Assembly (NCBI GenBank): GCA_020050685.1
Contig: JAGVKG010000064.1
Location: 62,001-126,000 of the forward strand
DNA length: 64,000 nucleotides
Source: Candidatus Obscuribacterales bacterium
Lineage (GTDB): Bacteria > Cyanobacteriota > Vampirovibrionia > Obscuribacterales > Obscuribacteraceae
Direction of reading: 5' to 3'
The position numbers and the translations under genes are program-made. A model generated the notes under the pieces. It worked only from the letters and a program-made list of their open reading frames with translations. It did no database searches and had not been told where the DNA came from. How positions within the stretch are numbered: the stretch's first letter is position 1; the number at the start of each line of letters is the position of its first letter. Positions 2,112 through 7,453 of the stretch are shown one piece after another.

Positions 2112-3515
2112 TTAGTATTTGGTTCTAACTAATGTTCCGTAGCCTCCATAGCATTGGAAGCCACTAGAGTTCTTGTGTGGATTTAATTGACCGGTCATGG
2201 ATTTCCGTTCGAAGGTTTTACCGCAGTTGGGGCAACGGTAAACATAAGTTGGCCCATAACTTCCTGAACTCCGCTTTGTCCGTTTGGTTGTACGCTCCGA
2301 GCGAGGCCGTGCAGTCGATTCCGCGACTGGTACTGGGCCGGTCGCCGTTAACTCAATCACATAACGTGGCGAGAAGCTTTGTGAGGTCACCGATGCGCCT
2401 TGTATGCGATCCAGTCTATAGGAGCGGGGTTCGCCATCCTCGCTTCGAATAGCATGGAGTAAATAGTTACCATCTGCTGTGCGCCGCAGCGAATATGGTT
2501 CAATGCGTCTTGTTCTGTTCTCGTAGACAAGATCGACGCAGAGATAGTTCGCAGCAGCGAACCGAATCGTTTCAAGTGCCGGACGAGTTCGTATTGGAAT
2601 AGACATTGGGAGAGTACGGCTGTAAATGGGTACCTCCTGTAAGTCCGGCCTTATGATTATTCGTTGAGGAGCTTCCGCGCCAGTGTGTATCCAACTAAAT
2701 ATCTCCGGTAGGGCATTCCAGAAATCGAGTGCCGGTGGAAGCACAGGCAACTGGTGCCCGAGCATGGCTGCCCACTTTGCTTCAAGGTCAGTGTGGTGTG
2801 ATACCAATGTCTCAAACGTTGGCAGACCGATTGATTTGAATTCGCATTTCTGCTTGAGTACATTGCGTAGGACGCCGGCAGAAGGACGTGCGTCGGTGTG
2901 TCTATATAAGTTGACGACGTCATAAAGATCCCTAGGTCTAGTTCGTTCTCCGAGTGCCCTCACCTTTTCGGCAAACGCTTCCTCATACGCATAGCAATTG
3001 GCCCAGATGCCCTCTGCTGGCACATCTGAATAAGGATGAAACACTGGGCGCCTCGCAGAAGGCAATACAATTATCTCGTCAGCCGTCAAATCGAGTTTGA
3101 TTTTTGGCCAACCGCCGGTGCTTGGTGACACCGGCCCCCGATAGCCAATCTTGCCTTGGCATGATGGTTTGCCACGAGGATTGTTGTAAAAGTCTATAGA
3201 TATCTGATCTGGTGGCAAATTCAAGCCTGACTGATCAGCGACCCATCTGACGACCTCGGAGAGCTGCGTTTTCAGAAATTCCTGGTCAATGTGACTTGCT
3301 TCCCGAAGAGTAAAATCCAAGTCTTCTGAGAATCGGTATGTTTCGAAGTAGCACTTCTTTAAACAGGTTCCACCTTTGAACACCCAAGAATTGGCAAGGA
3401 CTGGATTAGCATTGATACCACTAAGTATCCAACCGAGGACATAGTCTTTCTCGACGACGTTTGGCAGCAGCGACAAAGTCGATGCTGCCTCTAAGATTTC
3501 TCGCTTATCGATCAT
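2112..3515 (-). CDS. AbiEii-type nucleotidyltransferase toxin with WYL domain and C-terminal zinc motif
   Basis: 467 residues. The N-terminal half is an AbiEii/AbiGii nucleotidyltransferase: KGGTCL at 47-52, the catalytic SEDLD at 63-67, a third acidic strand KIKLDLT at 138-144, and the family segment EKVRALGERTRPRDLYDV at 183-200. AbiEii proteins are toxin halves of type IV toxin-antitoxin and abortive infection systems that modify nucleotides or tRNA (family knowledge). Residues 312-385 look like a WYL domain (VDLVYENRTRRIEPYSL, then NYLLHAIRSEDGEPRSYRLD). A basic linker at 400-418 leads to C428-x2-C431-x15-H447-x7-C455, a likely zinc site. Plain AbiEii proteins are near 300 residues, so this is an extended fusion. 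Translation overlaps the antitoxin gene by 11 bases. Confidence 0.85.
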   Translation of the reverse strand: MIDKREILEAASTLSLLPNVVEKDYVLGWILSGINANPVLANSWVFKGGTCLKKCYFETYRFSEDLDFTLREASHIDQEFLKTQLSEVVRWVADQSGLNLPPDQISIDFYNNPRGKPSCQGKIGYRGPVSPSTGGWPKIKLDLTADEIIVLPSARRPVFHPYSDVPAEGIWANCYAYEEAFAEKVRALGERTRPRDLYDVVNLYRHTDARPSAGVLRNVLKQKCEFKSIGLPTFETLVSHHTDLEAKWAAMLGHQLPVLPPALDFWNALPEIFSWIHTGAEAPQRIIIRPDLQEVPIYSRTLPMSIPIRTRPALETIRFAAANYLCVDLVYENRTRRIEPYSLRRTADGNYLLHAIRSEDGEPRSYRLDRIQGASVTSQSFSPRYVIELTATGPVPVAESTARPRSERTTKRTKRSSGSYGPTYVYRCPNCGKTFERKSMTGQLNPHKNSSGFQCYGGYGTLVRTKY

Positions 3516-4305
3516 GCGCAGGCACCCACAATCGCCACGAAGTTGCTAATTTGTTGCAGGACAATGTTGGATCCAGTCGAGCATATCCCTGCGTGAGATT
3601 GTTGCGGCAAGCCGCCGACAACTCATCATCGCTCAGGTGTTTTTCCGCCAAGTATCCTAGACGTTTGAAGATCGCGCCATTGCCATATTGTTTCGCATAA
3701 TCGATTAACAAGGTACGTTGTGCATTTTCGCTTGCCAGATATGTGGCAATGCACTCTATGACTTGATCAATTCCACCGCCTGTGTCCGGACTCGCGAGCA
3801 TGTCGATCAATGTTCGCGCAGGATCCGAAATCATCACGCGGGTTGATCCGCGCCAGATTGTTTTAAGTCCAAAAAAACGTTTTTCAGTCGAATGTCGCAA
3901 GCTAAAAATAACGCCTTGTGCTGCATGCTTTTGAGGCGCTCGTTGCGTAGTGAAGACTAAGACCTCATTGAACAATTGCTCAGTCAGATCCCAGTGATGC
4001 GCTGCCGTCCAGCCTCCGATATAGGATTTTCCGAACAACGATGGAACGAGGGTCCACGGATCTTCCACCACTTGTTGGCTGGTGGCAAGGTCTAGCGGTA
4101 CCGGAACATATAGTCCGGGTCCAATGCGACGCATCCACCCTTGTGCTCGCCAGCGCGACAAGAGTTTTGCCGCCTGGTGCCGATCGACTCCCAATGTTTC
4201 TGCGGCTAAATCGATAGTTATTACATCTCGACTCGCACGAAGCACAGCGGCAAGTCTTGCTCGGGACGGAGGTAGTGATAAGAATGAGTCGTTCTCTTTA
4301 TGCAT
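3505..4305 (-). CDS. AbiEi-type antitoxin and transcriptional regulator
   Basis: 266 residues. Residues 25-75 form a winged helix (ITIDLAAETLGVDRHQAAKLLSRWRAQGW, then a wing with RIGPGLYVPVP), the N-terminal DNA-binding domain of AbiEi antitoxins. The rest matches the AbiEi C-terminal layout, with GGWTAAHHWDLTEQLF and a following DPARTLIDML segment. In known AbiE systems AbiEi counteracts the nucleotidyltransferase and represses its own promoter by binding inverted repeats. The neighbour order antitoxin then toxin with an 11-base overlap fits this. Start ATG at 4305; no strong Shine-Dalgarno is seen. Confidence 0.83.
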   Translation of the reverse strand: MHKENDSFLSLPPSRARLAAVLRASRDVITIDLAAETLGVDRHQAAKLLSRWRAQGWMRRIGPGLYVPVPLDLATSQQVVEDPWTLVPSLFGKSYIGGWTAAHHWDLTEQLFNEVLVFTTQRAPQKHAAQGVIFSLRHSTEKRFFGLKTIWRGSTRVMISDPARTLIDMLASPDTGGGIDQVIECIATYLASENAQRTLLIDYAKQYGNGAIFKRLGYLAEKHLSDDELSAACRNNLTQGYARLDPTLSCNKLATSWRLWVPAHDR

Positions 4306-4340
4306 GGGCTATATATTACTGCACAAAATTCGCAATAGTA

Positions 4341-4413
4341 GGGAATTTCTAGTAATATTATATAGTAATTGACTATACTATTCTGCTCGAAATTCTCATT
4401 TATTGGGAATTTT
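4341..4413. promoter_or_regulatory. Predicted AbiE promoter and operator repeats
   Basis: On the minus strand a TATAAT -10 box lies at 4362-4357. GGGAATTTC (4341-4349) is inverted at GAAATTCTC (4389-4397) and repeated directly at GGGAATTTT (4405-4413). AbiEi antitoxins bind inverted repeats around their own promoter, so these are candidate operators. The -35 box is weak. Inferred from sequence only. Confidence 0.4.
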
Positions 4414-4463: not shown

Positions 4464-6548
4464 TTACTCTGGCATTGAAAGCAGAGTTTTGTTTGCCCAG
4501 CGTGCAGGGGTGGTAAAGACGGTCCAGGCACCACGCCAGACGTGGTCCTCATCTTCAGTCACCTTTTGCCATGTTGATGAGTCGCAGTAAATGGCGGGAA
4601 TTATTTTGTAGAGCCCGCTTGCGCGTGGATCACAGTATTGAACGTTGGCCTTGTGCATACCGTTTGGTAGTTGTTTGATATTCTTGAGCGCAACGGAAAA
4701 GCTCTTCATGCCGCTGGCTGTGCTGTGCAATGTCATGTTTATGTTTTGCCCGGGCGCAAGGTCTGCTTCTGATTGTTTTTGTTCAAGCTTGTCCAGTAAA
4801 AGTTCGCCGTCAAATTCTGTTACTTCTAGCGACGTGCCAACAAAAATTGACTTGCCATCAGCAGCGTGCAGTGAAAGCGGTATTCGTCTTGTGACATTGT
4901 GGGCTCGTTTATTGAATGGGCGTTCAACGGCGGAGAGTACTGCCGAGAGTACGATGTTAGTACTGTAGAGAAGCCAGAACATATTTAAAACTATTGATTC
5001 TTGATCGGAAAGATTCGCTTGCATCAGCCGGATGATGCCGACAATTAAGGATGCGCAGAAAATGCTTAATATAAATAGATTCGGCCAAGCTAAAGCAAAG
5101 TCAAACGAATGTGCCTCACGCCGACAGCCTTTTGGTGTTACATGAAACTTACCGGACGATGGATTGATTAGAGTAAACATGGCAGTGAGTGCCAAGATTG
5201 GTACAAGAGTTGCATCGTAAATGTCGGACCAAAATGAGTGTCTGAACTTGTAGAAGATGTAACTGTTGGCAATGTAGGAAAGAAATAAGTAGGGCAGGCC
5301 CATCATGAAGTAATTCAGGAAGGACGTATTGAGAGGATGTACGTCGAAGAGGAGAAATGCGCAGGGTGCCACATAAAAGATCAATCTTGGTATGGCGTAG
5401 AAATAGTGGCAGAGACCATGGAAATAGCAGAAGCGCTGGCCGAAACTCAGTCCCGGATAAGTGAGCGGATTGAGCAATCGCAAAAGTTGGATTGAGCCTC
5501 GTGCCCAGCGTGTTTGCTGAATGACATAGCCAGAAAAACTTTCTGGTGCTAAGCCGGAAATCAGTGGCTGAGTGTAGAAGATTGATTTGTATCCCAAGCC
5601 ATGGATCTTGATGGAGGTTTCACAATCTTCAGTGACAGTTTTAGTTCCCATACCGCCAACTTCCAGCAAGGCCGAGCGGCGGATGATACCAGCCGAGCCG
5701 CAAAAGAATGAAGCGTTCCAATGATGTTTGCCTACCTGGACAACTTGGTAGAACAATTGTTGTTCACTGGGTAAGACATTGTCCATATAGAGGTTTTTTT
5801 CAATTGGACCGGCATTGATAAATCGATGAGGTGTCTGGACTATGGCAAGTTTTGGATCTTTGAAATAGTGAATCGTCCTTTTCAAAAATGAGGACACAGG
5901 TACATGATCGGCATCCAGAAAGAGAATTAACTCACCTTCTGTTTGAGTCAAGGCATTATTTATGTTGCCGGCTTTAGCATGAGTGTTGTCTTTGCGAGCT
6001 ATATACTCACAGCCTACGTCGTTGGCTAACTGCTCAACTTCTTGTCTGCGACCATCATCCAGTATGTATACCTTTTTGTTGGGATACTTAATGGCGACCG
6101 CTGCTGCTGCTGTGCGGCGCAGAATGTCCAAATTCTCATCATATGTAGTAATGAAAACATCAACTGATGGACAAAAGTTCGGATCATCGGTGATTTTGTC
6201 GTGGCTTCGATCTAAGTTCCAAGTCTCCAGGTAAAATCCGATAGTCATCAGGATCGAATACAGCTCTGCAGCAAACAGTGAAATACTCATCATGCCATTT
6301 TGCAGATTTTGAAAATCGAGCGAAAAGCAGACACGCCAGGTGACGTACCGCAAAGCACAAGCAGTAGCCAGAAGCATAAGAGCCTTGCGCCGTCTATCTT
6401 GCCCTTTGATTCGACCGAGAAAAATTGCCGCGATAATTAAAGGCAGCGCGAGCATTGCTTGGGCAGTCATGCTCAAAGCAAGGGTGCCGGACCAGACGTA
6501 AACGAGTGCGGCAAGCAGCAAGGCTGATAATTTAAACCAATGGCCCAT
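4464..6548 (-). CDS. bcsA: Cellulose synthase-type processive glycosyltransferase
   Basis: 694 residues from the ATG at 6548, chosen because AGGGGTG lies at the right distance on the minus strand; the frame is open to 6575. Membrane protein of the GT2 BcsA family that polymerises UDP-glucose while exporting the glucan. Four N-terminal membrane helices precede the catalytic domain with the first Asp in VFITTYDEN, the DxD-type LDADHV, TED in VTEDCETS and the product-gating QQTRWARGS. More helices follow, then a C-terminal PilZ-like region starting RAHNVTRRIPL. The usual PilZ second motif D/NxSxxG appears as GTSLEVTEFDG, so c-di-GMP binding is uncertain. No bcsB or other cellulose genes are adjacent. 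Confidence 0.88.
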   Translation of the reverse strand: MGHWFKLSALLLAALVYVWSGTLALSMTAQAMLALPLIIAAIFLGRIKGQDRRRKALMLLATACALRYVTWRVCFSLDFQNLQNGMMSISLFAAELYSILMTIGFYLETWNLDRSHDKITDDPNFCPSVDVFITTYDENLDILRRTAAAAVAIKYPNKKVYILDDGRRQEVEQLANDVGCEYIARKDNTHAKAGNINNALTQTEGELILFLDADHVPVSSFLKRTIHYFKDPKLAIVQTPHRFINAGPIEKNLYMDNVLPSEQQLFYQVVQVGKHHWNASFFCGSAGIIRRSALLEVGGMGTKTVTEDCETSIKIHGLGYKSIFYTQPLISGLAPESFSGYVIQQTRWARGSIQLLRLLNPLTYPGLSFGQRFCYFHGLCHYFYAIPRLIFYVAPCAFLLFDVHPLNTSFLNYFMMGLPYLFLSYIANSYIFYKFRHSFWSDIYDATLVPILALTAMFTLINPSSGKFHVTPKGCRREAHSFDFALAWPNLFILSIFCASLIVGIIRLMQANLSDQESIVLNMFWLLYSTNIVLSAVLSAVERPFNKRAHNVTRRIPLSLHAADGKSIFVGTSLEVTEFDGELLLDKLEQKQSEADLAPGQNINMTLHSTASGMKSFSVALKNIKQLPNGMHKANVQYCDPRASGLYKIIPAIYCDSSTWQKVTEDEDHVWRGAWTVFTTPARWANKTLLSMPE

Positions 6549-6696
6549 ATTTTCACCCCTAAGTTTATTGATCATTCTCTGTTTGATGTGAATTGAACGT
6601 GAACATCAAGAAATATTCATAAGAGTAACTGGTCTCTGGTCTTTGCGTGTTCGAGAACAGCGCTGCCGGCAGTAACGATGCTGGTAGCGAGAAGGC

Positions 6697-6731: not shown

Positions 6732-7028
6732 ATGAAAAAGGCCTCAATATCCGAAACAAAAAACAATCTCAGTGCACTATTGGACTTGGTGCGCAATGGC
6801 GAGACGATAATTATTACGGACCGGAATCATTCAATTGCTCGGATTGAGCCAATTTCGCGAACGGGAAAATCGGATGACGAGTCGAGGTTGGCTCGACTCG
6901 AGCGCGCTGGTATTTTGAAGCGGGCGAAAAAGACTTCTACAAGACCACTGGATTTTTCCCCCATCAAAACTCAGAAAAAGACGAGCGTTCTCAAAGCTTT
7001 GCTTGCTGAACGAGAGGAGTCTCGTTGA
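6732..7028 (+). CDS. Phd/YefM-family antitoxin
   Basis: 98 residues. The N-terminal fold KKASISETKNNLSALLDLVRNGETIIITDRN.. IARIEP is the Phd/YefM DNA-binding and dimerisation domain. The charged C-terminal part (RLARLERAGILKRAKK to KALLAEREESR) is the expected flexible toxin-binding tail. It precedes and overlaps a PIN toxin gene by four bases. No Shine-Dalgarno can exist in the predicted leaderless transcript. Likely represses its own operon through the palindrome abutting the start codon. Confidence 0.9.
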   Translation: MKKASISETKNNLSALLDLVRNGETIIITDRNHSIARIEPISRTGKSDDESRLARLERAGILKRAKKTSTRPLDFSPIKTQKKTSVLKALLAEREESR

Positions 7029-7453
7029 AGTATTGGGACAGTTCTGCAATTGTGCCACTGCTCGTGACAGAAGCGGTATCAACTTCTCTCATGAGGCTAT
7101 ACAAAAGCGACCCAATCATTTTGGCGTGGTGGGGCACGAAAGTTGAGTGTACGTCCGCGCTTTGTCGTCTCGAGAGGCAGAAAGATTTGACTGCCGCAGA
7201 GACGTCCAATGCCATTAAATTGCTCAACTCCTTATCGGATGAATGGCATTCGATTGAACCTACAGATAATCTTCGCGAATTATCTATTCGCCTTCTGCGC
7301 GTTCATAATTTAGCAGCAGCTGATTCGCTGCAACTCGCCGCGGCTATTATTGCTAAGGAGACACATGTTGGAAAGATGGAATTTGTTTGCCAGGATGAGC
7401 GCCTTGTTCAGGCTGCCAGCAAAGAAGGACTGAACGTTGTTGTACAAACTTAG
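7025..7453 (+). CDS. PIN-domain ribonuclease toxin (VapC-like)
   Basis: 142 residues. PIN-domain acidic residues are visible: D5 in YWDSSAIV, E in KVECTSAL, D in AADSLQLAAA and D in CQDERL. These coordinate metal for RNA cleavage in VapC toxins (family knowledge). The start is TTG at 7025, supported by GAGAGGAG a few bases upstream, and it shares TTGA with the antitoxin stop, so translation is probably coupled. The RNA target cannot be read from the sequence. Confidence 0.9.
   Translation: MKYWDSSAIVPLLVTEAVSTSLMRLYKSDPIILAWWGTKVECTSALCRLERQKDLTAAETSNAIKLLNSLSDEWHSIEPTDNLRELSIRLLRVHNLAAADSLQLAAAIIAKETHVGKMEFVCQDERLVQAASKEGLNVVVQT

Follow-up and report, generated by a model that had tools for sequence, protein, structure and literature searches.

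An AbiE-type antitoxin–toxin operon from an Obscuribacterales bacterium encoding a nucleotidyltransferase toxin with a WYL domain and a predicted zinc finger

The AbiE system of Streptococcus agalactiae (Dy et al. 2014, PMC3985639) is a bicistronic antitoxin–toxin operon with a winged HTH antitoxin and a toxin carrying nucleotidyltransferase motifs I–IV. These features are shared by the locus described here, which lies in a 64-kb window (the whole stretch of DNA that was analysed, 64,000 nucleotides from a Candidatus Obscuribacterales bacterium), whereas its toxin is about 160 residues longer and carries a WYL domain and a predicted zinc finger. The MenT3/TglT toxin of Mycobacterium tuberculosis is structurally alike in its nucleotidyltransferase domain, but has neither WYL domain nor zinc finger. 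The WYL fold is shared with DriD, PafBC, SiwR, CapW and BrxR and, in the case of PafB, so are four ssDNA-binding arginines; however, these proteins are transcription factors, whereas here the WYL domain sits on an enzyme and does not retain the WYL tyrosine. Pif1 helicases likewise carry a C-terminal WYL domain on an enzyme and provide a precedent for the tuning of catalysis by ssDNA (PMC9964779), although they are helicases rather than toxins and have no antitoxin. The AbiE system of M. huakuii (PMC8436566) was considered as a member of the same subfamily, but was set apart by its description, with a 221-aa AbiEi and a different toxin start.

The preliminary description of this locus overstated the novelty of the fusion. 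The same pairing of WYL with DUF1814 (an ‘AbiGII-like nucleotidyltransferase’) is given in one clause, without analysis, in the 2014 list of Makarova et al. (PMC4012209), and it also lies within the PADLOC AbiEii model PDLC02317, which already detects this subfamily as AbiE, is named only AbiEii and stops before the zinc finger. In the main-text passages found of the 2014 study, the zinc finger, the AbiEi pairing and the ssDNA-type arginines are absent. Within the open-access literature (subscription journals were not covered), neither an experimental study of an AbiEii–WYL toxin nor a mention of a zinc finger on such a toxin was found. What is already on record is the domain pairing. The zinc finger and its conservation, together with the near-constant AbiEi partner and the arginines of the ssDNA type, seem not to have been described, as far as that literature goes.

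The operon consists of a 266-aa ORF followed on the minus strand by a 467-aa ORF, with an overlap of 11 bp (Table 1). Both proteins are called AbiE by PADLOC, the 396 positions of PDLC02317 spanning toxin residues 1–396 (E = 3.8e-185). The 467-aa ORF is a single intact gene that runs from an AbiEii/DUF1814 nucleotidyltransferase through a WYL domain to a C-x2-C-x15-H-x7-C zinc site, as had been proposed from the sequence; the two ORFs are present, Pfam recognizes AbiEii and WYL, and the zinc spacing is exact. A frameshifted neighbour had been named beforehand as a finding that would undo this assignment; more broadly, the tail could stem from an error of annotation or assembly. Four relatives (L050, L062, L068 and L078) do have in-frame stops or frameshifts between the WYL domain and the zinc finger, but in 53 distinct loci a single frame runs through all three parts, and dN/dS is low over the WYL domain and, where measurable, over the finger. 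Between the locus in the window and L028, dN/dS is 0.093 for the nucleotidyltransferase and 0.048 for the WYL segment, both of which are under purifying selection; for the zinc finger the values are 0.10–0.37 in the four close pairs where they were computable. The in-frame recurrence together with dN/dS rules out an artefact, the probability of which we regard as negligible, and the same recurrence, with purifying selection, shows that the tail is more than a product of chance. The stops and frameshifts, also present in L056, reflect either decay or MAG errors, and a Phyllobacterium plasmid carries a decayed remnant of a WYL and zinc tail (L025:2672-3275).

Table 1. Coordinates of the operon and its features in the window
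Feature	Position	Strand	Evidence
Three-part toxin gene (AbiEii nucleotidyltransferase + WYL + zinc finger), 467 aa	2112..3515	-	ORF, Pfam, PADLOC, alignment, AlphaFold2
AbiEii/DUF1814 nucleotidyltransferase domain, residues 30-265	2721..3428	-	Pfam AbiEii E 6.9e-34; Foldseek MenT3/TglT E 2.9e-7
Motifs I/II, residues 47-68, KGG-x15-DLDF with R61, S63	3312..3377	-	Fits hG[G/S]x15DhD
Motif III region, residues 179-191 (E179, K184, R191)	2943..2981	-	Invariant in 42 homologues
Motif IV RDLYD, residues 195-199 (+DxxD)	2919..2933	-	D196, D199 invariant in 42 homologues
WYL domain, residues 308-383	2367..2594	-	Pfam WYL above cutoff; modelled fold matches DriD, PafBC, CapW, BrxR
R336, equivalent to PafB R181	2508..2510	-	Profile alignment; invariant
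RSYRLDR, residues 364-370, RxxRxxR equivalent to PafB R208/R211/R214	2406..2426	-	Profile alignment; conservation
Disordered basic linker, residues 393-419	2259..2339	-	pLDDT <50; net charge about +5
C2HC-type zinc finger (predicted), residues 422-467	2115..2252	-	Ligands conserved; pLDDT 91-93; net charge +6
AbiEi antitoxin gene (winged HTH + AbiEi C-terminal domain), 266 aa	3505..4305	-	Pfam AbiEi_4 E 7.4e-7; PADLOC AbiEi E 2.2e-112
Proximal operator-like palindrome AAATTC-N11-GAATTT	4326..4348	.	Same place in four relatives
Distal operator-like palindrome AAATTC-N11-GAATTT	4390..4412	.	Imperfect counterparts in L028, L067

Homologues were drawn from plasmids, genomes of the bacterium's own class, species genomes and viral contigs, with duplicates removed. 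By record titles the three-part loci represent about 12 phyla, many being MAGs whose individual assignments need care, and since contigs were scanned with a WYL-derived pattern, these counts give no tail-bearing fraction of AbiEii proteins. AbiEi is found directly upstream on the same strand in 49 of the 53 loci, mostly overlapping the toxin gene by a few bases; the four exceptions are L024, L090, L092 and L084, the last of which has only 251 bp of upstream sequence. Other AbiEii proteins with the three-part architecture of the preliminary description do therefore exist, and their pairing with AbiEi is near-constant. No match to the toxin was found in phage records or in Escherichia coli genomes. 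In a tree of the nucleotidyltransferase domain, the toxin of the window groups with those of other Melainabacteria/Obscuribacterales, next to Acidobacteriota, and loss of the finger is scattered, some apparent losses being contig ends or disrupted genes. Because some relatives keep AbiEi but lack the finger or the entire tail, the tail is not essential for every AbiE pair. A portable WYL–zinc module on other enzymes was considered and rejected: among 386 genomes of the phylum of the bacterium the module matched only AbiEii proteins, and among 67 genome-contig loci, contig-end fragments aside, only L093 and L094 encode other proteins (PafC-like regulators), the contig evidence being weak in that it derives from a single WYL-derived pattern.

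The nucleotidyltransferase motifs I–IV are intact and near-invariant among 42 aligned homologues, with K47, G48, G49, R61, S63 and D67 invariant and D65 kept in 41, and the K47-G48-G49-x15-D65-L-D67 arrangement agrees with the published hG[G/S]x15DhD motif (PMC3985639). An AlphaFold2 model built with 42 sequences has a pLDDT of 86.8, and the linker is its only disordered region. The best structural match of the modelled nucleotidyltransferase is MenT3/TglT (Foldseek, 13–14% identity), and its RFSEDLDF segment is aligned to RFSTDLDF of the solved chain 6y56_A, which we take to be MenT4. As motifs I–IV are kept, the fold matches MenT3/TglT and the motif aligns with that of 6y56_A, an active toxin is expected. 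MenT3/TglT extends tRNA acceptor stems (PMC10435456).

The WYL assignment of the preliminary description was upheld, although the extent of the fold, given there as residues 312–385, is corrected to about 308–383. The Pfam WYL profile scores 27.1 bits on residues 313–375, above its cutoff of 21.8 (E = 4.3e-6). Foldseek returned DriD, PafBC, CapW and BrxR whether the query was the full model or just the tail. Several DriD entries superimpose at 1.8–2.8 Å over some 80 residues (28% identity), and ssDNA-bound CapW and PafBC were also matched. The profile match above a curated cutoff and the predicted Sm-like fold are those of a WYL domain. In the sequence profile, R336, R364, R367 and R370 are aligned with R181, R208, R211 and R214 of PafB, and they are kept in 40, 39, 37 and 35, respectively, of the 40 proteins of the main, AbiEi-paired clade. 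Changes of these four residues in PafB, singly or grouped, abolish ssDNA binding (PMC11804915). The WYL-motif tyrosine Y196 and R204 of PafB are replaced by L352 and D360 in the profile alignment. The four arginines would thus place the domain with the ssDNA-binding WYL kind, whereas the residues at the Y196 and R204 positions would not. As judged from the alignment, the conserved arginines argue for binding of a single-stranded nucleic acid, which could be either a sensor ligand or the tRNA substrate.

Beyond the WYL domain, the predicted zinc ligands are C428, C431, H447 and C455, the first three invariant and the last cysteine kept in 41 of the 42 homologues. Four conserved predicted metal ligands in a module that is folded in the model suggest a zinc finger. 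The spacing given in the preliminary description is exact; its zinc-ribbon label did not hold and C2HC-type zinc finger is the better term, the C-terminus giving only sub-threshold zinc-ribbon or C2H2 matches in Pfam (Zn_ribbon_8/FmdB, 23.0 bits against 34.4) and NCBIfam FmdB also staying below its cutoff (18.9 against 31.3). By net charge the nucleotidyltransferase is acidic, and the linker and the finger are basic.

The antitoxin, with its winged HTH, is encoded directly upstream of the toxin as in AbiE, and its match to Pfam AbiEi_1 falls slightly under the cutoff of that family. Upstream of abiEi are two exact copies of a 23-bp palindrome, AAATTC-N11-GAATTT, which are its sole matches in the window, with a TATAAT-like element between them. 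With one mismatch allowed, 0.40 matches would be expected in the window by chance, and seven of 100 shuffles gave two matches anywhere in it. The two promoter palindromes look like putative AbiEi operators, candidate inverted repeats of the kind expected for AbiE autoregulation; the S. agalactiae abiE promoter likewise has inverted repeats in a pair (PMC3985639), although the operator sequence differs.

A clade sister to the main one (L023, L024, L090 and L092) has the same architecture without AbiEi, L023 also lacking the finger, and in L090 and L092 the residues K, V and D replace R364, R367 and R370. This clade bears on the idea that the tail is a docking site through which AbiEi recognizes or neutralizes this toxin subfamily. 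The loss of the WYL arginines where AbiEi is absent would fit such a site, as would the near-constant AbiEi pairing and the correlated divergence of toxin and antitoxin (r = 0.92 over 56 pairs, 0 of 999 permutations), for which common operon ancestry alone would suffice. However, the sister clade retains the WYL core and zinc finger, bare toxins have AbiEi partners that fall under the same profile and differ little in length, and classical AbiE was classed as a non-contact, type IV system after contact had been tested (PMC3985639), so that docking appears improbable. In three loci the gene after that of the toxin encodes a DUF3800 protein (L090:2964-3806, L092:4486-5247 and L103:5410-6156), which may be another partner or antitoxin of the AbiEii–WYL–zinc toxin. 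In the Streptomyces plasmid L023, a SMODS (CD-NTase) gene is located upstream of the AbiEii–WYL toxin gene (1529-2650 and 3001-4236) with a 350-bp gap. A cyclic-nucleotide ligand suggested by this gene was not relied on, as it concerns one locus with that gap, in which the RxxRxxR arginines are lacking.

In the window the 3′ end of the toxin gene faces the 3′ end of a tmRNA gene (1579-1958), as in L028 (5736-6122), and in both a PrmA-like gene lies beyond the tmRNA gene; the arrangement may be an ancestral neighbourhood or an insertion hot-spot. Elsewhere in the window (6732-7453), two overlapping small ORFs resemble, by eye, a Phd/VapB-type antitoxin and a PIN-domain VapC toxin, and adjoin a cellulose synthase-like gene (4464-6575).

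The reading we prefer, with a probability of about one half, is that AbiEi and the toxin form an autoregulated pair of the type IV kind, in which the nucleotidyltransferase would probably extend tRNA 3′ ends with nucleotides in the manner of MenT3 and so stop translation, and in which the Sm-like WYL domain with its conserved arginines, the basic linker and the zinc finger would form a tail for a single-stranded nucleic acid, most likely ssDNA, that arises when phages replicate or DNA is damaged. Binding of this ligand would switch or localize the toxin, adding a second layer of control beside AbiEi. What the analysis shows is the structure of the genes, their conservation and pairing, the predicted fold and the conserved residues of the catalytic and ssDNA-binding types; the tRNA target, the identity of the ligand, the allosteric control and the role in phage defence are what we infer here. 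The contrast drawn in the preliminary description with a model in which only AbiEi controls activity is dated, as induced autophosphorylation is what controls MenT toxins (PMC11375011). The points in favour are motifs I–IV, the MenT3/TglT fold, the WYL profile and fold, the arginines, the basic tail, the AbiEi pairing with its correlated divergence and the palindromes; against it are the absence of R204 and of the tyrosine Y196 that PafB requires, the AbiEi-paired relatives without the finger or the whole tail, and the binding of ssRNA by at least one related WYL protein (WYL1, PMC10693628).

The main alternative is a substrate-holding function: the WYL domain and zinc finger would grip tRNA or another RNA and play no part in sensing. 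Sm-like folds include Hfq (PMC11804915) as well as the ssRNA-binding WYL1, the tail is basic and on a flexible linker, and tRNA is the target of the MenT relatives (PMC10435456). However, bare AbiEii relatives paired with AbiEi manage without a tail, MenT1 modifies an isolated acceptor stem without any WYL or zinc tail (PMC10435456), the WYL proteins closest in structure bind ssDNA, and ssRNA neither activated PafBC (PMC11804915) nor was bound by SiwR (PMC10693628); we regard a purely substrate-holding tail as possible but doubtful. Within the preferred, ligand-controlled reading, ssDNA is favoured on two grounds: the closest folds, like the conserved arginines, are of the ssDNA kind, and the WYL domain of Pif1 tunes an enzyme, binding ssDNA and being needed for activity (PMC9964779). 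A more specific version, in which phage or damage ssDNA gates the toxin directly through the WYL domain and activates a tRNA-modifying nucleotidyltransferase, with AbiEi acting only as repressor and brake, is rather unlikely.

In conclusion, the window encodes an AbiE pair whose toxin belongs to a family with members in about a dozen phyla, which current tools file simply as AbiEii. A conserved WYL domain of the predicted ssDNA type, fused to the catalytic domain, offers a specific and testable candidate for the trigger by which phages would set off an AbiE-type toxin. If the sensor reading is true, WYL sensing would be extended beyond transcription factors and helicases to a toxin.
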